DNA of 54,709 bases, from NCBI GenBank assembly GCA_019828545.1, contig JACVRA010000043.1, forward strand, positions 362 through 55,070. The letters are read 5' to 3'. The translations under genes and the position numbers were made by a program. The notes beneath the pieces were generated by a model, which saw only the letters and a program-made list of their open reading frames with translations, had not been told where the DNA came from and did not search any database. This DNA comes from Paracamarosporium sp. OC-R06-R3 (Eukaryota; Ascomycota; Dothideomycetes; Pleosporales; Didymosphaeriaceae). Shown piece by piece: positions 1 through 47,274 of this stretch (position 1 is its first letter; each line of letters opens with the position of its first letter).

Positions 1-260
1 CGTCCTAGGTCCGCATAGAGGTTGCCCAAGTTGTTAACTGTGTCAAGTGTTGATGTGTGCTCTGGTCCCCATGCCTTCTCGTAGCCCTGCAGCGCCCGCT
101 GGTACATCTTCTCCGCCTCGTCCAGCCGTCCTAGGTTCGCATAGAGGAGGCCCAAGTTGTTAACTGTGTCGAGGGTTGATGTGTGCTCTAGTCCCCATGC
201 CTTCTCTTAGCCCTGCAGCGCCCGCTGGTACATCTTCTCCGTCTTTTGTCGATCTTCGTC
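1..260 (-). repeat. 126-bp tandem TPR-coding repeat
   Basis: On the minus strand, near-identical 126-bp units each encode a 42-residue TPR_10/TPR_12-type repeat (core LDTVNNLGNLYADLG). The two visible units differ at only a few bases, including the C-to-A change that makes the TAA at 207-209. High identity between units suggests recent copying or concerted evolution, as in highly variable fungal NLR repeats. The array continues off the left edge. Confidence 0.85.
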
Positions 261-2883
261 TGCAAGAACATATCCTAGAGAATGAAACATCCACCCTTGA
301 ATTATGCCTACACCTTCCTCTTTTTCTGCGGCAGAGTTTGTCTTTATTAACCACCCACTAACGCCTATAGCATGCCCTAGTAGTCGCTTCCGCTTTTTCC
401 AGAACTCTGGCTCAGATATAAACGGGACATTCGATGCCACTATCCCTACCGCTATCCGACCAAGGGCGTGCTGCTGCTCCTTGCTTTCTGCCAGCCGCCC
501 ACACCATTGATGCAATACCGAGTGCATTGAGTGGGTATTACTATCTTTTCTTGCATCTGCAAGTGAGTAACGCGATAAAAGGCCAACTGCATCAGCGTAC
601 GCTAGTTCATCCTCCGCAATACTAAGTAGCCACGTTGGAATGTTCATATCTTCGCATAGTTTTGTTGCGGTTGCGACTAGCTCGTACCAGAGTTCGCCGT
701 GGTCCAGGTATCCCCACAGTTTAAGTAGCCACGCCGCCTCCTCGCTCTGCTTCTGCACCTGCTCGTATGATATCGTCCACGTTGTCAACACGTTTCGGTC
801 GCGATACTCCTCGAGCGGAAACCGGCCTTGGTTCTGCATTAGGCGCTCCCAGGTTCTATCGTAGTGCTCTATATAGGTCGATGCAGACATGTTCGTCTGT
901 TGCAAATATGAGCCAGCTTGGGTGAGGGCCAATGGGAGTCCACTTAGCCGTTCAAGAATAATGTTAACGTCTATTTACCACGTAATTAGTTGCTATATTA
1001 TTGTCTTTGTGTCTGTACTTATAACTCACTATTAATAGCTCTTCCGGCATTATTCTCCAGAATCGCCCTTGCCTGCTCCGTCTCGACCGTCCCTACCTTA
1101 AGCCCTGACCCGAGCCGCTGCAGACTCGCTAGCCGACTAGTAATAAGGATAGACCCATAGTCCGTATCGGGGAAATACGTCTTTATATTATACGCCTGCA
1201 GGTCATCTTTATCATGGTAGTCGCGGTCGACGTTGTCGAACATTATCAGCCAATGCTGATTCGTCGCAAGAGACAGCCACCGGAGACACTCGCGCACAGC
1301 CACACTGACGTCAATAGTAGAGCGCTTCAGCATCTCTACACCCTCTGCCGTCAGTTCATCCCGCGGCAGCGTCTGCATTATACTGGCAAACGACTGCTTT
1401 AGACTAGCTTCCGACGCCCCGTCTATCCAGAAGACGCTGCTGAAACGGTGATGGTGTTTCCGCGCGAACTCGACCGCTAGCTGTGTCTTGCCTATGCCGC
1501 CGAGGCCATGGAGGACGACGACAACTCTTCGTCGCTCTGTTACAGTCGGCGTATTGACAAGAAGTTGCTCTAGCTGCTGCATCTCTGCATCGCGTTCGAC
1601 GAACTTGCCCACAGTTGGCACACCTTTAAGATGGAAGTCGACCTTGTGCTTGCCATGGTCTGCCACAACAGTCAATCTCTATTTATTATCGTCTAGGCTA
1701 GGATGCATCGTTACATTGAGATCGCGCCCACACGAGCTTGTGAGATTCGCTGACCATGTGCTCAACGACTTCTGCCACCGTCTCAAAATCTTCCTCCGTT
1801 GCTTTTCCAAACTTGTTCATGTTGAAGTGGGTCCGAGAGAGCGAGTACTTGCTCGTCGCGTCCGACAGGTCGAGACAGCCAGAGCTCTCGCTGACCACAA
1901 ACCTCTGTGCATGTAGTTAGCTTTGCAATTTATATATAACACTCGTACACACTTACCGTCCGACTCTGCCCCCCCACGATTCTCCCTACGTCGCTGCTTT
2001 TAAGCTCGTAGAAGCATGCGATTTGCGTCTTGTTCGCCTGGCCCCGCATCTTCTTTAGGAAGCTATCCACCACCTCTTGCAGGTACGCGTTTCCCGGCTG
2101 CAGCACCTCAAGAGCGGTGGGCTGCACCTGATCGTTGTCGTATTCGCGCCGTGCCGCCTCTAGCATCTCCATCTGGTTCATCCCGCCTGCGCCTCGAAAC
2201 GGCGTGCCAAAGAAGACTAGGCCGGTAGTTGACCGAAATACTCCAGGCCACTCGCTCTGGTACTGTTCGGCCTCAAGTAGTGTCTGCAAAATTCAGCTAC
2301 TGACACGTTGCCTAGTTCACTCCACACCCTCACCTTAAGTACGACTAGCCCGCCAAAGCAGTGCGCTATAAATACTAATGGGCGGAACGCAATGTCCTGG
2401 CAAAGTCAGCGGATACACAACACTTGTTAGATACGGTTAGCACCTTTCTTTTCCGCTTCAAAGTTCTTAGTAACCGCTCGGCCACCGTGGACGCGCTCTG
2501 CTGCATCGCTTCTTTACCAAACCACTGCGACTCATATCCGTATCGCATAATGCGCGCGGTCGGAGCTACCACTGGCAGCATACTTTCGTCCTCGAGCCAG
2601 TTGACCCATCGCGGGCTTTCCCTGGTACCCGCATTCCCGCACCAGCTGTCGTCGGGATGGGCGCCAAGGCCGTGGATTGCGACGATGCTAGGTAGCTCAC
2701 GGTCAGTTTAGAAAAGCAAGCACTACTGGTACTAGTGAACGTACTCAATTATCTGAGCAGCTTCCGCCTCTGCTGGTGCCTCGCGGAGCACTTTCAGCCC
2801 GATATCGTCTTGGGTCACCAGCCGGACCTAAGTTAGCCCCGCGTTAGCCTCGGCGTGCGGGACCGTTGCGCGCTACCTACCAT
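1..2883 (-). pseudogene. NLR: alpha/beta-hydrolase, NB-ARC and TPR domains, with an in-frame stop in the TPRs (3' end outside the window)
   Basis: Eight exons on the minus strand join in frame: 2881-2883, 2745-2827, 2444-2687, 2334-2396, 1957-2283, 1734-1904, 1030-1678 and 970 down to a TAA at 207-209. The result is 767 codons. The three-base first exon is the least certain. Residues about 30-240 form an alpha/beta-hydrolase (PGAP1/DUF676-like) with the oxyanion motif IVAIHGLGAH. The nucleophile elbow reads AHCFGG, with Cys where lipases have Ser. NB-ARC follows, with a P-loop (GLGGIGKTQLA, about residue 357), Walker B (LIMFDNVD) and GLPLA. TPRs close the protein. The TAA replaces a Tyr codon that the next 126-bp repeat keeps as TAC, and the same frame stays open past it to the window edge. 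Such STAND proteins act as cytosolic receptors in fungal non-self recognition. Either this allele is truncated before most TPRs or it is a pseudogene. Confidence 0.8.
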
Positions 2884-3177
2884 GGTTTGCTTTTAGTGTA
2901 CAATCTAGATATAATGTGTAACGGTGAAAAGAGGAGTGGCGAGGAGTTGCGCATGCACTTGATAAGTATATATGTCAGGCTGAAAGACAGCCCGGCTGCC
3001 ATCAGCTGAAGATGAGTCCCTCGCCAAGCCGGGGCTGAGCAGGCTGCCGTCAGCCGAAGGCGAGCCCCTCGCGAGGCCTCAGGCGCAAAAACGATGCTCA
3101 CAACGGAGATATATTGTTTTCACAATCAATTCAACGTGCAGACTTGACCCATACAGATATACTTCTCGTGACTAGAC

Positions 3178-4137
3178 ATGCCTCCGTTCTCGAAAGAAGT
3201 CGAGCTCACGCACAACTACGAGCCTACAGCTAAAGCACCAACGACAGCATTTTTACCAGGCTACCCTTTGGTCAAGTGGAACGACTCTCCTCGCATAAAA
3301 CAATTCCTCGAGCAAGAACTATGGTGCATAGATCTGGAGGCGATGGCACCGCGTCTCTGGATTATGACAACTTTCTCCAGCGCCAACATCAACCCGTTGC
3401 ACCGCCAGCGAGTCAAGGGTCGTGAAATCGTCGTTACAGAAGAACCACGACTCCATCTAGTCTGGATCCACAACCGCATCTTTGTTAAACCTCTACCACA
3501 GTATCTGTTGTCGCATGCATTCTGGAAAACATTTCTGGAAGAGGGCTCGGACCGAACAGGCTACAGACAGAGCAACCTCTATAAGGCTGCGACTGGGTTC
3601 TTGCGGACGTATCGCTACTTGATCCAGCACGAATCCGACTTCCACATCGCCCAACAAGACCACCTTCGCCTCGTACCTAAAGACATAGACTGGCCATCGT
3701 TCTGCCGGTTCACCTCGGAACTCAGCCATGTCGACGACACAGCTGTGTCGAAGAGATACTGCTATGGCGAACTAAGGCTGACACGACTCAACTTCTACGC
3801 GCCGCTGCTTCTCCGCAAATTCCACTTCGAGCAGGTGCATGGACAGTACGGAGACTTCTTTGGACGTCTATATGGGCCTATACTTTTCATATTTGCTGTG
3901 GTTTCGACCATCCTGAACTCGATGCAGGTTGCACTTGCAGCTGACCAGCTGGAGGCCTCTCATTGGGAGGCAGTGTGGCACGTGTCGCGATATTTTAGCA
4001 TAGTCAGTCTTGTAGCAGCAGCTATTATCTCTTCGTGGTTTATACTCTTGTGGCTATGGATATTCTTGGACGAATGGATCTATACTGTACGACAAAAGCT
4101 AGAGAAGAAGCGAGAAGCCCAAAGCACGCCATGTTAG
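3178..4137 (+). CDS. DUF6601-type fungal membrane protein, 319 aa
   Basis: Single exon from an ATG at 3178 to a TAG at 4135-4137. The protein has features I associate with the fungal DUF6601 family: an N-terminal segment with RQRVKGREIVVTEE and HLVWIHNRIFVKPLP, a middle block YRYLIQHESDFHIAQQDHL, and CYGELRLTRLN just before the membrane part. Two hydrophobic helices follow (about residues 235-260 and 275-300), then a basic tail, which suggests a two-pass membrane protein. The molecular function of the family is unknown. It is divergent from the NLR to its left (about 295 bp between starts). Its stop lies about 50 bp from the end of the transposase remnant to its right. The frame has no stops, unlike its neighbours. 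Confidence 0.75.
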   Translation: MPPFSKEVELTHNYEPTAKAPTTAFLPGYPLVKWNDSPRIKQFLEQELWCIDLEAMAPRLWIMTTFSSANINPLHRQRVKGREIVVTEEPRLHLVWIHNRIFVKPLPQYLLSHAFWKTFLEEGSDRTGYRQSNLYKAATGFLRTYRYLIQHESDFHIAQQDHLRLVPKDIDWPSFCRFTSELSHVDDTAVSKRYCYGELRLTRLNFYAPLLLRKFHFEQVHGQYGDFFGRLYGPILFIFAVVSTILNSMQVALAADQLEASHWEAVWHVSRYFSIVSLVAAAIISSWFILLWLWIFLDEWIYTVRQKLEKKREAQSTPC

Positions 4138-4186: not shown

Positions 4187-5935
4187 CTAATACATCCGCG
4201 CCACTGGGGCCCTCCATGGTCCTGAGGACGACTCGCTCTCCGTAACGGTTGCCTTGCTAACATGTGCCACTACGGACACTGTAGGGTCTGGCGCTGTGCC
4301 TATTCGCGCCACCTTAGCCTTCGGCTCTGTTACGTCTACCTCTAATGCCGCACTCGTGCGCTTCTGACCTTGTTTTCCTTTGGCTTTAATCTTTTTAGCA
4401 GCTTCTATTTCAGCACGCTTCGCTTGCGCGTACTAAAGGTCCTCGTAGCCAATGACCTTAGCCGTTCCTAGTATTAGTGACTTTGTTGACCGTTGAACTT
4501 TCGCTTTATTATTAACCTTTAACAAAAATTGGATCTGGTTCTGCTAGAGAGTACCTTTAGCGAAGGATAATTGTGCAGCTTTAGTAAATTTAGAGAGATG
4601 CCTCTGCAGACTTTGTTGGCACCTCTCTTTAAGAGTATAAGCGTCCTGCTTTATAATAAGGTTTTGTAGGGAGATAAGACCTTCTGCTGACACTAGCGTT
4701 GCGGGCGTTGCGGGCGTTTGCGGAATGTCTTCCTAAAGACTCGGCCCTATAATAACCTCGTTAGCTACTGACATGGTGGATTTAGGACCAGGCTGTAGTA
4801 TAGATCTAAGCACCCTATTTAGATTAAACGGAAACAATCTACTTGTAGTAAAGCCAGCCTTAATGTTTTTAACAGTAAATGCTTTATCTCGTGTAGGGCT
4901 AAATAGGGACGTGAAATGCTCCTTGCCTATTGTATTAACACCTCTGCGCTCCAGTCGTTTAACTTGTTCACGATAGGCAGATTTTAGTAGGGCAAATACA
5001 GCGACGTTGCAAGGCTGTAGCTTGTAAGAAGTGTGAGAAGGAAGTTAACAAAGAATAATGTTGTTTATAAAGCAATACTCTAGGATTTCTAAGGTTTTAT
5101 GCGTTCCGAAGCTATTACAAATTAGGACTCATGGCTTATTGTTGGCTCGTTCTTTAGTCTTAGGATTAAATATACGTTGGAGCCACTGTAAGCTAATGTA
5201 AGAGTCGGTGTATCCAGATTTAGAGTACGTATACTGCCACCTAGGGGTGGGAAACGTAGTCTAGTTACTTTAGTGAGTGGTCGCTGGCCAGATAATTATA
5301 GGGTTTAGATACCTACCGTCGGCGCTGATGCATTCGATCGCGGTGACCATTGTCCGCTTTATACGTACGCCCCTATAGTCTCGCATGTTATTTCTACCTA
5401 CTAGCACTTTTACTGAACCTAGCATGGAGAGCATAACGCCAGTCTCGTCCATGTTATACACATTCTCTGTGAGGATAGCCTAGTCTTGTAGTATCCGCCC
5501 GATTACCTTGAACTAGTGCGTGATCTTCCAGTATATGTTCTTCTCGTGGCGGTTCCAGTCCAGCGCCTTAACTCTCCTCGCTTGTGTTTCTGGGTGACGT
5601 TTCTCAAAGGCCCGAGCCCAGTTCTTACTTGGTAGCTTATGTGGGCGGTCGGTCTCAGGTCGCTGGCGGGTAACGTAGAACGCTAGGAACGGTATAAACT
5701 TGATTCGCACGGGCTGTCCAAGATTAGACATCTGCAGGATAAACTTGACCAGCGCATCCTCCTCCTAAGGATAAAGATACTGTTGACTCTGGGCCTTCTC
5801 CTCTATCGAGCGATGGCCATGAGCACGAGAATGAAGGGTGGAGCGAGGGACGTCGCCATGATCTGCTAGAGCACGGTAAGAAACAGGTACGCTAGGCGGA
5901 AGGCCTTGAGACAAGACTTGACTGGCTTTGTCCAT
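4187..5935 (-). pseudogene. pogo/Fot1-type DDE transposase, RIP-degraded copy B
   Basis: A single frame of 583 codons runs from an ATG at 5935 to a TAG at 4187 with no frameshift but many in-frame stops (for example 5765-5767 and around 5510). It is collinear with the transposase at 10951-12681 and shares the blocks VYNMDETGVMLSMLGSVKVL and LNPxIIWPATTH. The first catalytic Asp (NMDETG) is present. The second is changed to Asn (ICNSFGTH, where copy A has ICDGFGTH). The third is also Asn (LQPCNVAVF, where copy A has LQPCDVSVF). Both changes, and CGA-to-TGA or TGG-to-TAG stops, are G:C to A:T transitions, the RIP pattern. It is inactive. The C-terminal tail is rich in Lys and Arg. Confidence 0.85.
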
Positions 5936-6543: not shown

Positions 6544-6575
6544 CCGTGCGTCCCGCCACGCAGTGACGGACGTTA
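6544..6575. repeat. probable right terminal inverted repeat and TA target site of element B
   Basis: About 31 bases ending GACGT at 6573, followed by TA (6574-6575), match the right end of the intact element at 13249-13278 at roughly three quarters of positions, including CGCAGTG and GACGTTAC. The end lies 638 bp outside the start of transposase copy B, much as the other right end lies 595 bp outside copy A. I found no partner near 4140-4187. The left end is therefore lost or lies beyond the window. Confidence 0.55.
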
Positions 6576-6727: not shown

Positions 6728-6938
6728 ATGTGCTTAATTTACTACCTAATTAGCTTAACTACTTTTATCCAAACTCAAGTTCACGCTGTCGGTTACACAG
6801 ATAAATCATGCAAAAGATTAGATTCCTGTCGTGTAGGAGAGCCTGGAGCCGTGCTCGTTAGCGTTAATACCATGGCTGAAGGATCCTGGTCCACGCATAA
6901 TATTACGTACGAAGCGAAAGACTCAACTAAATGTCTTA
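6728..6938 (+). pseudogene. small secreted protein gene, 5' part, split by a transposon
   Basis: An ATG at 6728 starts a protein with a hydrophobic leader of about 20 residues ending near QVHA, then a Cys-containing mature region (KSCKRLDSCRVG). The natural frame runs to 6938, where the 6,338-bp element begins after a TA. Reading into the element gives a short unrelated tail that stops at 6995-6997. The rest of the gene is at 13279-13463. Together the two parts total 396 bases (131 codons plus stop) with no frame break once the element and one TA are discounted. The product would be a small extracellular protein of unknown function, effector-like in size and Cys content. As it stands the gene is disrupted. 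Confidence 0.8.
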
Positions 6939-6962
6939 ACGTCACCCACTGCGAAGCGAGAC
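6939..6962 (+). repeat. left terminal inverted repeat
   Basis: Twenty-four bases identical to the reverse complement of 13253-13276, directly after a TA at 6937-6938. A further GCGAGAC occurs about 15 bases inside. This is the left end of the 6.3-kb element. Confidence 0.85.
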
Positions 6963-7492
6963 GCACAACAAAGCGAGACAAACTAGAGGTACTTTAAACT
7001 TTAATCACGTTTACAACGCAGCAACGTCTAGTTTTTAGGTTCGCTTGCGGTAATAATATAAAAGAGCTTCTTAGGAGTAAGTCTCCCGCCTTAGAGGTAA
7101 AAATTACTGGTCCCATAGTTTTCTTTACGGCTCATTAACAGGAGCATCTTATTCCGCTGTTATGAATATCCTAGTCTACAACAACACCCTGCCGTCAACT
7201 GCAGCTTTCAAGTAGATAGATCTGTTTAAAATTGCGTAATAAATTATTTATAACTTTCAACATCTCCTATCGCCTGTATGGCTGCCGGAGGAAGCAGATC
7301 TATACAATATTGCCACCCTAGTCGGTACCTAGAATTTAAGCGAGCAAGAGAAAACGTGACCTGCACGGATTACACGCCGTTTCTAAAGATTATGTAATAT
7401 TCTTAGCAGTGTGTGGCTGTGCTTAATACCAGCTACAGAGGGTAAGCGTCTATATAACGCTTATGCCAAACCGGCCTCATTAATGCACGAAG

Positions 7493-10488
7493 CTAGAGAA
7501 TCCTAAGCAGAACCACACGACCAGATGCAAGTCCTAGACAAGCTGTGTCCTCGCGTACTGCAGTCGACGTTGATCGATATTCTGGCGGAAGCCACAGGAA
7601 TCTTTGTTGGTTTCGCAATATCCACTGATCCTGCACTTCAACGTAGAAGGACTGTAGCTGCGGTCTCAAGAGCGACGTCACGACAGGAGGTCGAGGCAAA
7701 GGAATGTCGCCTTTGTCAGTGCGAAGTATCTGGCCATCTGGTGAGAAATCAACATAACGGATGTGTCGAGAAGGGCTTTCTAGCGTGCTGCGACACGTCC
7801 CTGTTGCTGTCTCCCACAGCCGTACTGTCTTGTCGTCTGATGCTGACGCGACCAGCTGCCCGTCTGGCGAGAAGGCCACCGCGTTGACCTTCTGGGAATG
7901 GCCCTCGAGCGTGCTGCGACACGTCCCTGTTGCTGTCTCCCACAGCCGTACTGTCTTGTCCCCAGATGCTGACGCGACCAGCTGCCCGTCTGGCGAGAAG
8001 GCCACCGCGTTGACCTCCTGGGAATGGCCCTCGAGCGTGCTGCGACACGTCCCTGTTGCTGTCTCCCACAGCCGTACTGTCTTGTCGTCTGATGCTGACG
8101 CGACCAGCTGCCCGTCTGGCGAGAAGGCCACCGCGCTGACATAGCTGGAATGGCCCTCGAGCGTGCTGCGACATGCGTCCCAATCCGCTTCTTTCGCAGA
8201 TAGCATCTTGATCTGTTCTGGCACTTGCTCTGTAAAATTTTGTCGTATTAGGCTCCTTTCGGGTGCGAACACTAGCGCAGAGGAATAGATTTGCAGCGGC
8301 GCATCTGTAAGCATCAATTGGAACCGCAGCACAAATCGCTTAGCGTCGTGGAGAAAGCCTAAAACTAGCTTTGCAGATAGCTGCGTTGCACGTTAGCAGA
8401 GCAGTATCAAGGTATCTTGCAAAGATCTTACGCTAGTAAGTGCTTGAAGGCTGTCGAGCAAGTCAACGCATCTGCTCGATTCTCTCATCAAGCTTATAGC
8501 CTCGAGCCAATGAAGTAGGTGCTTCTGCAGAAAGAGGTGCGTCGCGTCTCCGTTAACGACGCCTTGCCCACTCTGCTTAAGATGATCAATCCAGTACCGA
8601 CACGCATACTGTAGATCAGGTGGCAGACTAGTAGCAACTGTCTTCTCATCTATCTCGCCCCTTAGCACTCCAGGGCCTAATAGGCCGCAAATGTTCTGAC
8701 GAAGTCCGCTAGATCTAGACATGAGCTCAAGGCAGCGAGATGCAAGCCTCTGGTGTGTCCTTTTCTTATTTACCCAGAATGGGCTATTTCCTTGTTTTTT
8801 AGGACTAACAAGGAATTCGCAAAAGGATAAGTGCAAGAGGCGGACAGGTGCGTCTTTGTTGTTGGGAACACTAAGCACAGAGTGCAAGGAGTCAAGTCGA
8901 CACTGGATCTCTTCTTGCGGGACTTGGAGCAGGCGGGCAAGTGAGACAGTAGAGAGTGGGCTTTCAAGTACAATGACACTGCCGACGACTTCTTGGAAAG
9001 CCTGAAGCCACGTCTCCTTCTCGTCTTCCTCTTGTTCACTAAGCAGCTGATTAAGCACAGGGAGGTATGTCCGTTCTAGCTGCGAGAAGGTCGCTTTCTG
9101 ATACTGCAGGACCTTGTTTAGAAAATCCGTAGGACTGCTTCCTTTGCTGCCAACATACCGACACACGGTGGCAGCGTAGATAAACAGCGGCACAGCCAGC
9201 TCAACCAGCGCGAGGATCTGCTGTTGCGCTGGCCAATCTGGGGCTAGCATGCGTTCTTTTCGTATCGTACCAAGCTCGTGCTCTAAGAACAAACGAATGT
9301 CATGCTCAATCGTGCTCCTTGGTACTTCGTGGAGGACTAGGTCTTGGTATGTGCCGTTCGCCATCTCCTTGAAGCCTAGGCGGATGTGGAGCTCTGGCCG
9401 ACTAGTAACCACGATCCGTAGCGGCACTGGGCGAATATCTTTTGTCTGAGCGAGGAGCTGGAGGATCGCCCTAACGTCCGCTTCTCGTTCACATTCGTCG
9501 AGCGCGTCAATTACAATAACTCGCACTAAGGCCTGCGAACGAGTCTGCTTAATCCCTAGAAGTGGCTGCAAGATGAGCTTCTCGAATTGGTCTTTTAGAG
9601 CTTTATATGAGATGGCCGAGTCCTCGTTGAGCGTCTTCCTAATGCCGGGCACCATGCCTGGCTCGCAGGCGACTAAATCAGTGGCGATAGTGGTAAAGAA
9701 CCGTGAGGCGTTGCCGCGCTCGCCTTCACCTCTCTTGAAGAAGAAGCTTGCTCCCAGCTGATCGTGGCTGGCAAATGACTCTGCGATTGTCCGCGCAATC
9801 GTAGACTTCCCTGTGCCAGCCATGCCGCTAAGCCAGAATATAGACTTGCCATCCTTATCTTGTGCCCAGTTTGTTATGTCCTGCAGCAGTGCAGTACGGG
9901 TGTTCGGTAGGCATCGCGCGTTGTGTTCCTCCGTATGCGAGTCATAGGACGCGCCTTGGGCGATGGGTAGTTTGGCTAGATCTAGTTTCTGGTCTATGCT
10001 CAACACGACGGTTCTGCAGTTGGTGAGAAGATGTTTCTGCGCACGACAGATCGGGGTACGGAGGCTTACGTCTGGTCAACCTGTAGCGCTAAGCTGAAGG
10101 TCTGTTCGTATCCCTCTAAGTTCGAAACAATCCTATCAACATGCTTGCTCGTGAACGGCCATTTGAGCGCACGGAAGCCGATCCGACTCAGAGTCTTGCG
10201 GCCCTTTCCTGGTTCTAGCTCTACTTGCAGGTTTTCTAGCTCCTTTAGGCATTTTGCGAGCGAGCTAAAGAGGCCCTGAGTGGTAGAGAGCCGGGTCTTG
10301 ACCTGGCTGTCAAGGAGCTGTTTGATCTGCTCTAGGATGTGGGAGATGTCGCTGACCTTTCTCTGTACACGCTTGATATCATCTTTGGCATCTTTGACGG
10401 CTTTAGAGTACTGGAGGCACAGTGAGACAATCTTGGCGGATATGTCAATCACCGCGATGACGCTTGCTGCGCCCGAAAGACCGTCCAT
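7493..10488 (-). pseudogene. NACHT-WD40 STAND receptor (NLR), one in-frame stop
   Basis: Two exons, 10070-10488 and 7493-10013, with an intron at 10014-10069, give a 979-codon frame. Residues 1-140 form an alpha-helical fungal STAND N-terminus (PigL_N/Helo-like). NACHT follows, with P-loop GMAGTGKSTIARTI (about 203), Walker B VIVIDALDEC (about 305) and the sensor region RIVVTSRPE. After the winged-helix region come three near-identical 42-residue WD40 repeats and a degenerate fourth. A TAA at 8393-8395 interrupts the frame just before the conserved FLHDAKRFVLRF linker. The same frame resumes at once, so a CAA-to-TAA change is likely (RIP-compatible). Without readthrough the product would be a receptor lacking its WD40 ligand sensor. 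The gene lies wholly inside the 6.3-kb transposon, on the same strand as the transposase. Confidence 0.85.
7765..8165 (-). repeat. WD40-coding 126-bp tandem repeats
   Basis: Three units of 126 bp, differing at very few bases, each encode a 42-residue WD40 repeat with SAVAFSPDGQLVASAS and DKTVRLWETATGTC. A fourth, diverged unit lies downstream. Near-identity between units is the hallmark of the fast-evolving NWD/HET family repeats used in heterokaryon incompatibility, where unit number and sequence change by recombination. Confidence 0.85.
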
Positions 10489-10950
10489 GATGTGAGGTCT
10501 GCGGCAGAGATGAAGTAAACCGATTGATCGCGCTTCATGTGATCGTAAGCTGGGGCAGCAGCCAGGTCGCTCTCACGCTGGTTGCAGTGCTATGATCCAT
10601 CGTCGCTGCACAAGGCTGAGGGCTGAGAGGGCTAACGTGGCTGAGCGCTGCTGCATGACAGGCGGCGCAGGGCCAATACCTAAGGGTTTCGGAAGCATGT
10701 TTCGCCGGAACCCGCTTCCTGATCCTTCCTTGAGTTACTGTGCGTCCTTGAGAAATGAGCGAGATAACGTTAACACGCGAACACTATTTTATCTTGTTGC
10801 ATATAGGGCGGCGCGATCGTTCGAGTATATTCATACTTCGCCAGACAAAGTATAGAAACGCCAGTATTTGTAGGTAGCAACTTGGAGCAGCTGACAGTCA
10901 TAGGAACTAGGCTGTCACTATCAACCAGAATCCAATCCTTTAGAATGCCA

Positions 10951-12681
10951 TTACCCTCTCCTATTATGCAGCATAGGTGCCTCAGGAGCTCTCCATGTTA
11001 ACGCAATCTGACCATCCACCTGGACTCCATCCTGCACGTCACTCTGTCTCACTACCTTAGCCTGAGGCTCTCCTCCAGCTATACCCTTACGCTTTCTTCC
11101 ACGTTTCCCAGTAGCTTTAGCTGCGGCGGCGGCCGCCTGCTCAGCACGCTTCGCTCGCGCTACTTCAAGCTCATTCCAACCCATAACCGCTCCCTCACCC
11201 TTTTCCGCCCTCCTTCCAAGTATGTGTCCTTTGGCCGATCGTCGGACCTTGGACTCGTCGTTCATATTCATCAGGGACTGGATCCGGTCTCGCTGCAGGA
11301 TGCCCTTGGAGAATGCTAAATGAGCAGCCTTTGACAATTTCTGGACATTCTTTTGGAGACTAAGGATGCTCCTCTGGTCAAAGCACTGGGTGGCTTGATT
11401 AGTTATAATATTCTGCAGCAATGCTATCCCCTGAGTTGTTACTGGCGTCACTGGTGTACGAGGTGATTAAACAGTATCTTGAGGGTTTGACACTACTTCT
11501 GCTTCGTTCGTGTCGATGAGGGTCAACTCCGATGGAGGCTTCGGCATACTTCTAAGCACTCTATCTGGGTTGAATGGGAACAACCCACACGCAGAGAAGC
11601 CAGATCTGATGTTTCTTTGGGTGAACGCCTTGTTCCTTGCATGGCTATAGAGTAAGGTAAAGTGCTCTTTACCTATCGCATTGACACCGCCTCGCTCTAG
11701 TCGTTCAACCTCATCGCGATAGGCAGCCTTGAGTGCAGCAAACACAGAAACATCGCAAGGTTGGAGCTTGTGAGAGGTATGGGATGGAAGGCGACATAAG
11801 ATAATGTTGTTTTCTAGGCAGAACTCAAGGACCTCGAGAGTCTCGTGGGTCCCGAAGCCATCACAGATTAACACTCGAGGCCTACCGTTAGCTCGGTCTT
11901 TGGTTTCTGGGTCAAAGATGCGCTTAAGCCATTCTAGGCTGATGTAGGAATCAGTATATCCAGATTCAGAGCATGCATACTGCCATCCAGGGGTAGAAAA
12001 TGTCGTCCAGTTACTCCGATGGGTAGTGGCGGGCCAGATAATCATAGGATTCAGATACCTACCGTCTCCACTGATGCATTCAATAGCGGTCACAGTCGTA
12101 CGCTTGACTCGTGCACCTCTATACTTTCGCTTATCATGCTTACTGACAAGGACCTTAACAGAGCCTAGCATGGACAGCATGACTCCAGTCTCGTCCATAT
12201 TGTAGACATTCTCAGCTAGGATTGCTGGGCCTTGTAATACTTCCCTAATCACCTTAAACCAGTGTTCACTCTTCGGGTATATGTTCTTCTCATGCTGGTT
12301 CTAGTCTAGTGCTCCTACCATCCTTGCCTCAAGTATCAGATGGTGCTTCCTGAAAGCTCTTGTCCAGTTGAGATGCGGCGGCTTACGTGGTCAAGCGGAC
12401 CGTGGTCGCTGCAGTGTGAGGCGGTGAGCTAGTGCTGGTATAAACTTGATCCGGATAGGATAGCCAAAGTTAGACATCTACAGGATGAACTTAACGAGTG
12501 CTTCCTCCTCCCACGGAGTGAGGTACTGCTAGTCTTGGGCCTTTTGTTCTAGCGATCGTCGGCCTTGCGAACGATGATGGGCTGTAGAGTAAGGAACTTC
12601 CCTATGGTCTGCGAGGGCGCGGAAGGAAAATGGCACACCCAGAGGAACCCCTTCCACTAATGCACGACTTGCCTTGTCCAT
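10951..12681 (-). pseudogene. pogo/Fot1-type DDE transposase, copy A
   Basis: One frame of 577 codons runs from an ATG at 12681 to a stop at 10951 with no indels. It has five in-frame stops, at 12529, 12478, 12391, 12301 and 11467. Residues about 140-430 hold the DDE_1 catalytic core with all three acidic residues: NMDETG, LICDGFGTHE and LQPCDVSVF (DDD as in Fot1/pogo). A helix-turn-helix/CENP-B-like N-terminus precedes it and a Lys/Arg/Ala-rich tail follows. The longest intact stretch is 11470-12252. The stops fit CAG/CAA-to-TAG/TAA or TGG-to-TAG changes. It is less mutated than copy B but should not give full-length protein. Its start lies 595 bp from the right inverted repeat. Confidence 0.88.
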
Positions 12682-13252
12682 GCCTACTTACTAGAGTGGT
12701 GCGATGAGTGTTGGTGGTGATGGTGGATGAGCGAGGCAGCAACCCCTTAGGCAGGCCGGCCGTTGCCGCGCGTCAAAGGACACGTTGCCAAGGACGAACA
12801 AAGAGCCACAGTTATTTTTGGAGTCTTATTGGGATAGGTCTAGTGTATGGCGTAACGTTGATTACATAACCGCGCTCTCGGATCATAAAATACAGCTAAT
12901 TTATCCCAATACTATGAGGGCACGGAGAAACAGTCGGAACAGGGCTGTAAAGCTCCCAATCACGACGCGACTAAGAGTATACAATCTTTATAATCACAAC
13001 TCTCATTTCTATTCTCCGAAATATCAATTAGTCTCCTCAGGAACTAAGAAGCAGGGGTAGGAAGGAAGGCGGCGTTTAAAGAGCGCCAATGAAATGATCG
13101 ACAACGTCAACCATGTCACAAGGATCTCTCTCACAAGCTAGTATAAGAATGAGTAGATGCTATAGGACTCATTACCACATTCTTAGGACGAGGCTCTTGC
13201 GATAGAACGAGATTTTGAGTTCTGAGTGCAAAAGTGTCTCGGTACTCTGTGT

Positions 13253-13276
13253 GTCTCGCTTCGCAGTGGGTGACGT
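13253..13276 (-). repeat. right terminal inverted repeat
   Basis: Twenty-four bases, inverted and identical to 6939-6962, followed by the second TA copy (13277-13278). The next inner bases (13240-13250) carry a second GTCTCGG motif that mirrors the left end. This is the right end of the 6.3-kb element. Confidence 0.85.
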
Positions 13277-13278
13277 TA

Positions 13279-13463
13279 CATGGGAGTATCTTGTAAAGAA
13301 TACAGGTTACAGTCAAGTAATAGGTGATATGCAAGGAACCAACGCATATATTAGCCTTGTTAGCCCAGACCATGGCGGACATTGCTTAGTATATGCCACG
13401 AAAGACTGCGCTGACAATACTGCCATGTCCTTAGGTGGATATAACTTGAAATTTCCTAAGTAA
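13279..13463 (+). pseudogene. small secreted protein gene, 3' part
   Basis: This is the continuation of the gene that begins at 6728, on the right side of the transposon. The frame that follows on from codon 70 runs through TWEYLVKNTG and two further Cys residues (GGHCLVY, KDCADN) to a TAA at 13461-13463. A longer open frame starting inside the inverted repeat is an artefact of the insertion. Together the parts give a 131-residue precursor with Cys in the mature protein on both sides of the insertion point. Confidence 0.8.
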
Positions 13464-37283: not shown

Positions 37284-40247
37284 ATGGGTACCTCGAAAGA
37301 TTGTGGATTAATCTACGCATTTACTGCGAACGACGAACCTTATCTCAAGTTAGGTGAAGGCTTGGAGAGGGCAGTGAGTCAGCTTGACCGTCCCGCCATT
37401 GATACCCCTGCTTTTGTCGTATCAGTCGGTCGACGCAGCTCCAAAAATCCATCCAGTAGGCATGCGCATTCACTAGCAGAAATTGAAGTCGATCGCTCGT
37501 CCGAAATACCAGTATTCTTCGTTACGATCAACCTTGAACATCTATATGACAGACTCCCGTCTCGCAATCATCACCACCACCCGTACAGCCATCGTGTAGC
37601 ATGGGCAGGTAGGTCCGCAGAGTTTGATGAACACAACATGGTCGACAACGTCTTGGGTCGACTTATCTTACCCTTCAGCGATGTACTGTGCCTTTTTGTG
37701 GATGAGTTCAAATCATCTGGAGAGGCGCTAGACATGCTCGCTCAGTGGTCACGCATTTCAACCAATTCAGGAAAGCGCTGGAAGTCGGCACTCATCCTTG
37801 TCAGCCGTAGGCGTCTTAGCGGAGTAGATCGGGAGAGCCTTTCTTCCTTCAACGTCATTATGCGGCCCAGGGCCTCCACTCTCCGCTCTAGGGTATTAGA
37901 AAAGGAAATCCTGCAAACTGCGGCTGCAGTACACGAAGAAAGAAAAGCAACCTGTTCGTTGTTCTCGGCCCAGCATCTCGTCGGATTTTTCAAAGCAGCA
38001 TTGAAACATATCGCTCACGCCCTCGATGCATTCGATTTCATCGCCGCAACACGAACCATGAATCCCATTGAACCTACTTTTAGCACGCATTTACGGTTCT
38101 TCCTGGATCTCTGTGCGCAAAATGGAGCCAGCAGAGAATTCATCTTTCGTTACATAGCCTCGGCGCTTGTGATGGACAGCTGTCCGCCGAGAATGCATCG
38201 TGAGTGCTACGGCCGGAGCTTAAGCTAAGAACGAGGCTAACGTCCTAAGGGTTTCCTGCTGAAGCGGTTTTCGACTCTCTTTATGCTTCTCATTGTTTCG
38301 AAGCTTTAGCACAAGGAGATCCTGCTCCTAGCGCTTCGTGCAAACTCATCAAGGCAAAATACTGCAGATTTTACAACTTAGTCAAGCATGAATCCACAGC
38401 CAAGAGTCACCAAGAGGTTATTCAGTCCTTTATAATCGACTGGAGAGGCTTTCGAACTACGCAATTATGTGTGTTCTGCATACATCGTAAGCCAGAGCAT
38501 TCCTTTCAGTGCGGCCACGCGCTGTGTGACGAATGCGTACGTAAATTTGGTACTCCGCTCAAAGAGAGAGAATATGCCTATCGCTTGACTACGTGCCCCA
38601 TTTGTAAGTTTAACAACAACCTAGTAGTTGATATGAAACCACCCACTGCGGGAGCACGGCTGCTCGTACTCGATGGGGGAGGCATTCGAGGGATTTTCAG
38701 CATACTAGCCATCCGAGCCTTGGATGAAGTGAGAAAACTTCCCTACCCAATCTACGATGATTTCGATCTCGTTCTAGGAACAAGCTCAGGTAAATCTCTT
38801 AGGATCAACCTTACGTGATGCTAACAATAATCAGGAGGTCTCATTGTTCTTATGATGTTCCTTCGCCGAAGCATGTCGGAATGTTTTTCACTTTTCGAGA
38901 CATTGGCAACCAAAGTGTTTTCCACACGTACAAACAGCTTGCTGTCTTGGATTTATAAAATCATATCGTCCCTCATTACAGATAGCCGATATGGCGCAGA
39001 TCAAATAGAGAGGTGCATCAAAGAAGCGTACGGAGAGGATACTCGACTTTTTAATGGACTCGGTCACGAATCGGGGAAGTCTGGCACGAAATTTGCAGTT
39101 ACTACCGTGAGCGTTTCAACTTCTCAGCTATACTTACTTTCAAGCTACAACGGGAAACGAGATCGAAACGGTACAAACCTCATCTAATTTACAGAACGGA
39201 ATTGACCAGGACAGGATATGTTCATCATCGCCCTATTCGATCTGATGAAGAGATTCTCGTTTGGGAAGCGTAAGAATCCCAGTTGCTTCGTAGGCTTCTA
39301 CTAATTGTGTCAGTGCTAGAGCAACATCAGCGGCACCATCATACTTCCCAGCAAAATTTGTTCGTGGCTTTGGGTTTCTTCAAGATGGTGGTGCGGGGAA
39401 ACACAACAACCCCATTGATCCGGCCGAATGGGAGGCAAGGGCTATCTGGAACACCGCTCCTGACTTAGTCATATCGATCGGAACTGGCTACTCTCAGACC
39501 CCTCAGCCATCACCGGTGACATCACATCGACTTCGATTCCGTGATAGATTCTTTCCTAGATTGTTCCGGATCTTCGATGCGATGATCAATGCACAAAGTA
39601 GCTGGAACGAGCATATCAACCGCCAGAGCGAGGAAGCCCGTGAGAAGTATTTCCGTGTGAACATGCCGCTAGACCAAGCACCTGAGCTTGACAAAGCTAG
39701 TGAGATCCCGAGAATGAAACGCAGCTCCTCGCTATTTCTTGAGCAATTCGATTTCCGACCTCCAGTCCAAGCACTACTGTCGGCTTCCTTTTTCCTCGAG
39801 TTGCACGAAATCCCAATAGCTGGGAGCACTAAGTTAAAGTGCCCAGGGGCTATACGGTGCCGAAGTCATAATAGCCACGCTCTCATTCATAGAATTCTTG
39901 ACGAATACCCTGCTGCGTACTTTAGTGTCGAGACCGGAGAAGTGCTCGGTAAAGTCAGCAGCCAAGATCTGTGCAGGAACTGTGGAAAGTATTTCAAAGA
40001 AGTTTTATTCAGCATACATCACATGGATCAGCCATTTACTATTCATCTGCAATTAAACGCATTGTGGAAAGGCAAGATTAGTGGGTTTCCGCAAAGCGCA
40101 TCATCCATGGCAAAGAAACAGTTGCTGGAGGCGAACTTTGGTCGCCCTGACCATGGACTACTGCAAACAAGGGGTTGTTGCTGCTTTTTTAAAAGGAAGC
40201 GTTCCATCTCACTACGCTTGAGCCGAAAACGGGTGAGATTGCAATAA
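37284..40247 (+). CDS. patatin-like phospholipase with a RING-like zinc region, 928 aa
   Basis: Exons 37284-38199, 38250-38789, 38835-39106, 39145-39269 and 39314-40247 sum to 2,787 bases. The 38-nt third intron is unusually short. The N-terminal 400 residues are not recognised. A RING-like C3HC4 segment (CVFCIH, FQCGHALCDECV, TTCPIC) precedes the patatin domain. That domain has the oxyanion loop VLDGGGIRGIFS, the nucleophile GTSSGG (split by intron 2), SAAPxYFPA, and the catalytic-dyad Asp in LQDGGAGKHNNP. All catalytic residues are present, so it should hydrolyse acyl lipids. Patatins of this kind are one of the recurrent Starship accessory genes and are also used as NLR effector domains. 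A Cys pair lies in the C-terminal part (CRNCG). Confidence 0.8.
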
Positions 40248-45491: not shown

Positions 45492-47274
45492 CTAGTCTAT
45501 TCCCCGGCACATTACAGACATACTTCGTTCCCTTGTTGGTCGTTTAAGAGCACTACCTTCTGTATCAAATAATTTAAAGTCAGATACCATTAATCTTACA
45601 TTCTTGTTCATGCCTTCCGAAACTTTTGCTCGTACTTCGTTGGTAATCGCAGTACTAGCACATACTACATCACTTGTTAGAGAAGGACCACGATATACGG
45701 TAGCCTTACCGGATATTGCTATATTTCCAGTACGGGTTTTAAGTATTTTTCCGATGATCTTAGCATAGTTAGGTTGACCCCTGATCTCAACCATCCTTGC
45801 GCCACTTCTTTTCTGTTCCATAGGCAGGTCGTCGCGGTATATAAAGATGTCAAGCACCTAAAACGTGTTATAATCTCATGAACATTCTGTGGCAGGCTTA
45901 CACTTTTCCCAGATGGAACCGGCCGGCGTCCGGGATCCTCTTTCATCTCCGTCGACTGTAGGGAGCGTTGGTCCTTGGTCTGTTCCCTTTTTTTTTCAAC
46001 ACGCTCCTTGTCTTTCCTCAACAGTTCATCCATGAAATCTTTAGCAGGGTGATTCGTGAACCCACTCCGGATAGACCATATAAATATCACATCTCGAGTT
46101 TTTGTATCGAAGTGATCTTGCCCATTAACGACTTCCCTAAGGTAGGAAAGATGTCCTGTGATTCCGATCCCGCTAGCAATCATAATCACGGTACCAAATT
46201 CCCGCAAGTCGGTAGGGCAACCATAGGGACCTTCAATCCATGCATCGTGAAACTGATATTGTTCCAATGAAGGACGTAACTTTCTCGTGAATCCAGCTCG
46301 CGGCCAGATGTGTAGTTCAATGCTTTTCGTCAGAATCGGTGACACCACCATGAAGGGATGTCTCTGAAATCGAGAGAGCGTCCCAGCTCCACCCATGGTT
46401 AGGTACACATACTGGCCGGGACGCACTTTCCACGATCGAGCGGGGGTTATCTGCAACTTCAGTGCGTCGCCCGATCCTTGCACTACTGCCTTCGTCTTCC
46501 TGCCCAACGCAAGATTCCGGTACAGTAACAGACTATACCGGTGAACCAGGCTCAAAGCCCACACACCGGTGCCAAGAAGAAGGCTAAGGCTAGCCAGTCG
46601 GTTCTTTCTAGATATATGAAACCAAAGAGCAACCGTCATTGCTGCTGAGGCAACTATATGGACCAGACGGAAAAGCTCATGAGCACGTGTCCGGAGTGGC
46701 GTGATCGACGTCAGTACTATCATGAGCACGCTTGATGATGCCTTAACAGTCAACCATGTCCGCACGTTGAGATTATGGAGCTTACCGTTACACCAGCAAC
46801 AGATTTGACGTTCCATACTAAACCTTTGTCATAAGATGCTAAACAGGGGTGCAGTATACTTTGAACAAAGGCTAAAGAAGCCACCGCAACGTGAAGTTTT
46901 GTATAAACGCGGAGCGAGATACGGAAAGTGTCCGCTCCAAGGTCTGCGCTTGGTAGTAAAAGTGCTAGATTCGTAGAAAGGATTGATGCGGTTCGAGTAC
47001 TCAGATCGTTGACAGAATGCACTTTCCAGCTCATACAAAGGACGTTCGCGGAGGCCACAACGACATATATGATGACATCCCCGACGGTGGCTTGAAGCTT
47101 TACCCTTTTTAGAAGCCGTACCTCGGTGTATTGTAGATATTTCAAGATAACGTAGGTAAACCAGGCGGTTAAGAAATAAGATATACAGAAACTTAACCAC
47201 CGCAGCGCAAGCAGTACGACGAGAGCGTACCAGGCAACAGAATACCACAGGGTAGAGCTAGAACTGTCGACCAT
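45492..47274 (-). CDS. ferric reductase-like transmembrane protein (FRE), 564 aa
   Basis: Exons 46786-47274, 45902-46741 and 45492-45857, with introns of about 44 nt, sum to 1,695 bases. Six or seven helices include paired His residues in KLHVAVASLAFVQSILHP and LVHIVASAAMTVALWFHI, the bis-heme ligands. The FAD site has RFQRHPFMVVS (HPF motif), then DAWIEGPYG. The NADPH site has VIMIASGIGITGHLSYL. A Lys/Arg/Glu-rich insert follows before VLDIFIYRDDLP. All electron-transfer parts are present, so it should reduce ferric iron or oxygen at a membrane. Ferric reductases are a recurrent Starship accessory gene. It is divergent from the MADS gene (105 bp). Confidence 0.85.

Follow-up and report, generated by a model that had tools for sequence, protein, structure and literature searches.

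Can a small cut-and-paste transposon carry a complete fungal NOD-like receptor (NLR) gene as part of its own body, and is such a unit found more than once in a genome? The question is raised by a 54,709-nucleotide stretch of DNA (the window, C209:362-55070) of Paracamarosporium sp. OC-R06-R3, where a pogo-like element, referred to here as element A (window positions 6939-13276; 6,338 bp), is bounded by inverted repeats and contains both a transposase gene and an NLR gene. Our analysis used one draft genome (43.1 Mb in 337 contigs, a contig being given as C plus a number), in which contigs frequently break off within NLR repeats; domains were assigned by Pfam profiles, and readings made by eye are identified as such. 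Very probably, A represents a pogo transposon of the Fot type, with the NLR as resident cargo, and a member of a diverse family that repeatedly encloses NLRs. This interpretation is directly supported by bounded elements with shared ends, by the order of transposase then NLR on one strand, by a copy free of transposase and by constraint on the NLRs.

The terminal inverted repeats of A are identical in 24 of 24 bp (left, 6939-6962, plus strand; right, 13253-13276, minus strand), and a TA dinucleotide stands on each side as a target-site duplication (6937-6938 and 13277-13278), which confirms the termini given in a preliminary description of this locus. With the TA counted in, the arms reach 44 bp at 86% identity. 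A search of the whole assembly with up to three mismatches allowed finds the 24-mer nowhere but at both ends of A (without mismatch) and on C128 (3 mismatches), and a reversed-pattern control has 0 matches. The element splits a plus-strand gene for a putative small secreted protein into a left part (6728-6938, 211 bases) and a right part that closes with a stop (13279-13463, 185 bases); as had been described, the lengths add up to 396 bases, and each half, read separately, is open in the matching phase. One 159-aa open frame at C90 matches both pieces in order (C90:29737-29853 for the right piece, E 3e-9; C90:29878-30027 for the left piece, a weak match at E 0.023), as would an uninterrupted paralogue of the split gene, and paralogues of the right piece are found on C90, C334 and C213. 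Because the two ends of A are closer to each other than to any other end found, they are taken to belong to one element; the specificity of the 24-mer, the in-phase open halves and the C90 paralogue together make it unlikely that the two repeats come from two separate elements, an outcome that would have spoken against the preliminary description.

Read from its right end, A comprises a right-end module (12682-13252; 595 bp including the inverted repeat, its outer 391 bp sharing 72% identity with the corresponding end of an element on C99), the transposase gene (10951-12681), a gap, the NLR gene (7493-10488) and an AT-rich left end (6963-7492; 41.8% GC across 6939-7500). Both genes lie on the minus strand, with Pfam matches to DDE_1 (E 4.5e-32), NPHP3_N (6e-31), NACHT (3.8e-6), WD40 (8e-50) and PigL_N (4e-9). 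The earlier claim of a DDE transposase and a whole NLR on the same strand thus stands as to domains and strand, with the qualification that the transposase is broken and the NLR is whole only after splicing. The pogo/Fot-type transposase frame starts at 12681 and runs for 576 codons plus a stop, with five premature stops (3 TAG, 1 TGA, 1 TAA); its second and third catalytic D are separated by 35 residues (DD35D). Pfam gave no match to a helix-turn-helix domain in this transposase even with the stops read through, and HTH_Tnp_Tc5 (PF03221) is present in some of its close homologues, one of which is named tan1 transposase. Since its transposase contains five stops, A probably relies on one encoded elsewhere. 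The NLR, in turn, is a 962-aa protein with no premature stop once two predicted consensus GT-AG introns are spliced (10014-10069 and 8381-8431, both starting with GTAAG); without splicing, the reading frame shifts and meets a stop at these sites. Its PigL_N/SesA-like N-terminus, NPHP3_N/NACHT part and WD40 repeats correspond to the fungal NLR architecture of an N-terminal effector domain, NACHT or NB-ARC and C-terminal repeats. The propeller is short, with three WD40 stretches scoring on their own.

The recurrence of this arrangement was assessed by a genome-wide survey of related ends with two patterns, one modelled on the termini of A, C99 and C128 (17 ends; control 0) and one on related ends from C85, C151, C99 and C117 (26 ends; control 1), which jointly gave 38 ends, or 30 sites after each pair was merged into one and an inner C85 end was dropped. 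Whole-genome NLR domain lists comprised 84 matches to the NACHT-type profile PF24883 and 13 to NB-ARC; the HET list, consisting of the best 150 of 346 candidates scored, was left out of statistical tests. A listed NACHT or NB-ARC match lies within 6 kb inside the end at 7 of the 30 sites (0.41 expected) and within 6 kb outside it at 3, two of these being A and a neighbouring element of the same family, B, seeing each other. Among sites that had not been used in writing the first pattern, 5 of 13 have such a match inside (0.18 expected, p 5e-7), or 4 of 12 without B (p 1.5e-5), and pooling the independent sites of both patterns gives 6 of 26 (p 1e-6). C85 and C67 were also known by other routes, and the first pattern found both independently of their NLRs. 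With Pfam HET matches taken into account (C99, C244 and C151, in addition to A, B, C67, C85, C142, C66 and C132 from the domain lists), an NB or HET domain is enclosed at 10 of the 30 sites. An NLR-like TPR tail precedes the contig end at three more (C23, C258 and C34); these tails probably belong to NLRs, and the DNA of C23 and C34 is similar to the NLR of C244. C75 was considered as a further NLR site on account of an NB-ARC-like fragment seen by eye, for which Pfam gave nothing, and it was not counted; a HET-like start at C132 was likewise seen by eye only.

Five elements, spanning 3.7-7.7 kb, have both ends and an NLR, and their cargoes differ in architecture. In addition to A (6.3 kb, PigL_N-NACHT-WD40), these are C67:27414-31976 (4.6 kb; NB-ARC and TPR by Pfam, with a HET-like start by eye), C244:90334-94817 (4.5 kb; HET and TPR, with one in-frame stop and no Pfam match in the NB part), C99:37224-40968 (3.7 kb; HET and TPR, again with no match in the NB part) and C85:491070-498722 (7.7 kb; NACHT and WD40, with a PNP_UDP_1 open reading frame (ORF) ahead of them that probably belongs to one and the same gene). 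A sixth complete element, C17:47423-51215 (3.8 kb), has no NLR and encodes a PigL_N-ULD protein, with a C2H2 zinc-finger stretch seen by eye; its PigL_N is the same N-terminal type as that of the NLR of A. All six have TA at both ends, and across 45 columns the two ends of one element agree with each other at 38 in A, 42 in C67 and 40 in C17. On C151 an end at position 57434 encloses a zinc-finger stretch similar to that of C17, and on C85 a second, better-scoring family end in the same orientation (C85:491329) is set 259 bp inward of the element's left end.

Comparison between copies bears on whether the NLR belongs to the unit. Between C151 and C244, identity is 88.7% across some 2.9 kb that comprise the NLR and its flank, and 82.8% in the right-end module (599 bp); a 2,036-bp transposase block of C151 is exactly missing from C244. 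The block begins just past the presumed transposase start codon, and a short ATGRA is common to both of its borders, which fits a deletion; ends of this family were not found at the borders. The NLR is common to both copies, with or without the transposase, and thus belongs to the unit. Transposase followed by NLR on one strand is also seen at C162 (HET and NB-ARC) and, by the domain lists, at C88 and in B, as in C151 itself; family ends were looked for at C162 and C88 and none were seen, and at C117 the sequence that follows the transposase is masked. The C99 element is 89% identical to C244 in its left 1.0 kb and 72.5% identical to A in its right 393 bp, and so looks like a chimera of two subfamilies; exchange of this kind would let NLRs swap ends. 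The NLR of A is therefore best read as resident cargo, and not as a nested passenger: the earlier proposal of a captured receptor gains support from the other NLR-enclosing ends (the 5 of 13 above) and from the C151/C244 pair.

The transposase lineage of A itself comprises about ten loci. A same-strand listed NLR lies within 5 kb downstream of 4 of 12 transposase matches inside the lineage vs. 1 of 59 outside it (Fisher p 0.002), where two of the four represent one locus (C88), i.e., 3 of about 10 loci. The one match outside the lineage (C327:61687-64584) is a distant pogo transposase (40% identity) with a NACHT match 2.3 kb further on the same strand, and may represent one more such case, in a separate lineage. 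All five transposases compared contain stops in the aligned reading frame (A, 5 not counting the terminal one; B 9, C117 12, C151 5 and C162 3, the last four counts including terminal stops and alignment errors). Stops in the pogo transposase matches are mostly TAG or TAA with few TGA, like an outcome of repeat-induced point mutation. Ratios of nonsynonymous to synonymous substitution rates (dN/dS) are low for both genes. For NLRs they are 0.22 between C244 and C151 (544 codons; HET pieces 0.15 over 98 and 0.14 over 143 codons), 0.20 between C132 and C66, 0.35 between C132 and C67, 0.23 between C244 and C99 (0.37 in the TPR tail) and 0.36 between C244 and C34 over 80 codons; for transposase pairs they are 0.14-0.27 with dS near saturation, A vs. 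B giving no estimate. Judged by these ratios, both transposase and NLR genes have evolved under constraint, which for the NLRs may in part predate their capture.

The most obvious alternative is that NLRs and pogo remnants merely crowd the same repeat-rich regions and form no real units. Many end sites do sit at contig ends, 8 of the 30 have no NLR in the stretch read, and HET genes occur also near ordinary pogo copies (C272, C148 and C173). These last had suggested a second, HET-carrying pogo family, with HET about 2 kb upstream of DDE, start to start, which we rejected: a DNA search with the C173 stretch gave at least 43 other matches (best 40 of 65 candidates scored), of which all those listed run from base 923 or later, past the HET ORF at bases 1-870. 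Matches that begin only past the adjoining HET ORF make HET merely a neighbour there, and ordinary pogo copies thus behave differently from the ends described here, inside which listed NLRs are found at more sites than outside and which enclose the same NLR unit on two contigs, C151 and C244. We consider crowding an improbable explanation. Still less probable is a nested insertion, in which the NLR entered A later within another mobile element, or the transposase of A is itself nested in an NLR-bearing element. The presence of the transposase block as a unit in C151 and its absence from C244 could be read in this way; yet the NLR within A is not flanked by long repeats, inverted or direct, the borders of the block are free of family ends and fit a deletion, and the order and strand of transposase and NLR are constant at several loci.

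Least probable of all, to the point of being hardly credible, is that the NLR sites are parts of Starships, with incidental pogo ends. Carriage of NLRs by Starships is known from three reports (PMC9815663, PMC9594970, PMC12506042), but the whole assembly has four matches to DUF3435, each with stops, on C318, C241 and C265 only; the contigs of the NLR elements have none, and five NLRs are bounded by matched ends within 3.7-7.7 kb. Several observations do weigh against a Fot-type transposon family with resident NLRs. Full-length A is present in one copy with a broken transposase; the ends of C244, C85 and C99 pair poorly (33, 33 and 27 of 45 columns); the NLR copies of C67 and C244 are decayed; TA is replaced by CA and AA at the outer ends on C66 and C258, respectively; and independent sites of the second pattern, taken alone, give 1 of 13 (p 0.16, not significant). 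In addition, 17 of the 30 sites have no demonstrated NLR: eight have none in the stretch read (C17, read whole, and C151:57434, C48, C102, C75, C32, C143 and C128, read for 0.5-2.0 kb), and nine were outside the reading (C94, C286, C99:85302, C99:98291, C139, C298, C324, C126 and C213), among which C139 has a listed HET match about 2.8 kb inside the end and C298 has 9.6 kb between ends.

With respect to known systems, A has in common with Fot/pogo elements, as described in PMC7386202 and PMC2836289, its terminal inverted repeats, the flanking TA and a DDE_1 transposase with DD35D spacing. It departs from them in size (6.3 kb vs. the 1.2-5.2 kb given for the superfamily in PMC7386202) and in not being limited to a transposase; Fot elements, according to the same sources, mostly have a TAA target duplication, with TA, as in A, in a minority. 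We retain A as a variant within Fot-type pogo, the published range of size and content describing earlier members. The closest parallel in Pleosporales is ToxTA (formerly ToxhAT), presented in PMC12506042 as a non-Starship, TA-flanked element with inverted repeats and a non-transposase gene, probably moved in trans; it is a 14-kb single-copy element with an effector gene, in contrast to the many diverse elements of about 4-8 kb with NLR cargo found here, and A has a transposase of its own. Starships, as portrayed in the three reports cited above, are likewise mobile NLR carriers in Pezizomycotina, but are giant and depend on a DUF3435 tyrosine recombinase, a captain of which none was found near the elements described here; a part in horizontal movement has been proposed for the NLR and patatin-like genes of Starships (PMC12506042). 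The receptor of A resembles NLRs of the HET-E type in having NACHT and WD40 repeats that are almost identical to one another (HET-E-1 is the name of many among its best 120 homologues), and differs from them by its PigL_N/SesA-like, rather than HET, N-terminus and by its location within a transposon. Our literature search, with most subscription papers outside its scope, found no report of a pogo or Tc1/mariner element with NLR cargo, nor of any pogo family in which such cargo recurs across several members. Ant1 of Aspergillus niger, on which that search returned nothing, belongs to the Fot1 type and has captured part of a gene.

These features are consistent with a scheme in which A would have entered a TA by cut-and-paste, splitting a small gene, moved by a transposase supplied in trans, with the NLR as cargo between the element's own transposase gene and left end. 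Family ends, with or without a transposase, repeatedly enclose fungal NLRs of varied architecture, which recombination among elements may bring in and exchange. By homology, the carried NLRs may serve self/non-self recognition or defence, and such action may also help the element persist. More tentatively, and with the balance tipping slightly the other way, the pogo lineage might be a dedicated NLR vehicle, in which related ends and a transposase are combined with an exchangeable NLR cassette, scattering and reshuffling incompatibility-type receptors genome-wide and perhaps across Pezizomycotina, a group with close relatives of the transposase. That a small cut-and-paste transposon contains a receptor gene, and related ends enclose others, suggests a new route of spread for NLR genes; if true, a small TA-targeting transposon with whole NLRs would lead to dispersed single-gene duplication, presence/absence variation and inter-copy recombination, and would raise the question of whether a self/non-self receptor aids transposon persistence.

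Relatives of both genes occur in other fungi. The C117 transposase has its best database match in Paraphaeosphaeria sporulosa (Pleosporales; 94% identity over 87%), and transposases that share 65-89% identity with the DDE part of the A transposase were found in Pyrenophora, Botrytis, Curvularia, Lachnellula, Cladosporium and metagenomes (best 120 of 175 proteins), with no fused transposase-NLR gene models among these 120. For the NLR of A, relatives with an identity of up to 82% were found in Pyrenophora, Bipolaris, Alternaria and others (best 120 of 5761). Two scans for relatives in viral contigs gave 5 and 3 pattern matches, none of them confirmed.

Element B, adjacent to A, has its right end at 6550-6575 (minus strand), a decayed transposase at 4733-5883 (minus strand; 69% aa identical to that of A across the DDE part) and an NB-ARC gene at 1-2707 (minus strand; Pfam identifies the NB-ARC domain, while TPR repeats and a hydrolase-like N-terminus were read by eye), within which the contig begins, leaving the left end of B out of view. 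Between its transposase and NB-ARC genes lies a DUF6601 gene on the opposite strand (3172-4137, plus). A DUF6601 relative, 34% identical, is found just inside the C143:77558 end, which resembles that of B, and DUF6601 is possibly a second recurrent cargo gene. Elsewhere in the window, ORFs resembling a patatin-like phospholipase (39294-40247, plus strand) and a ferric reductase (45719-46828, minus strand) were recognized by eye.

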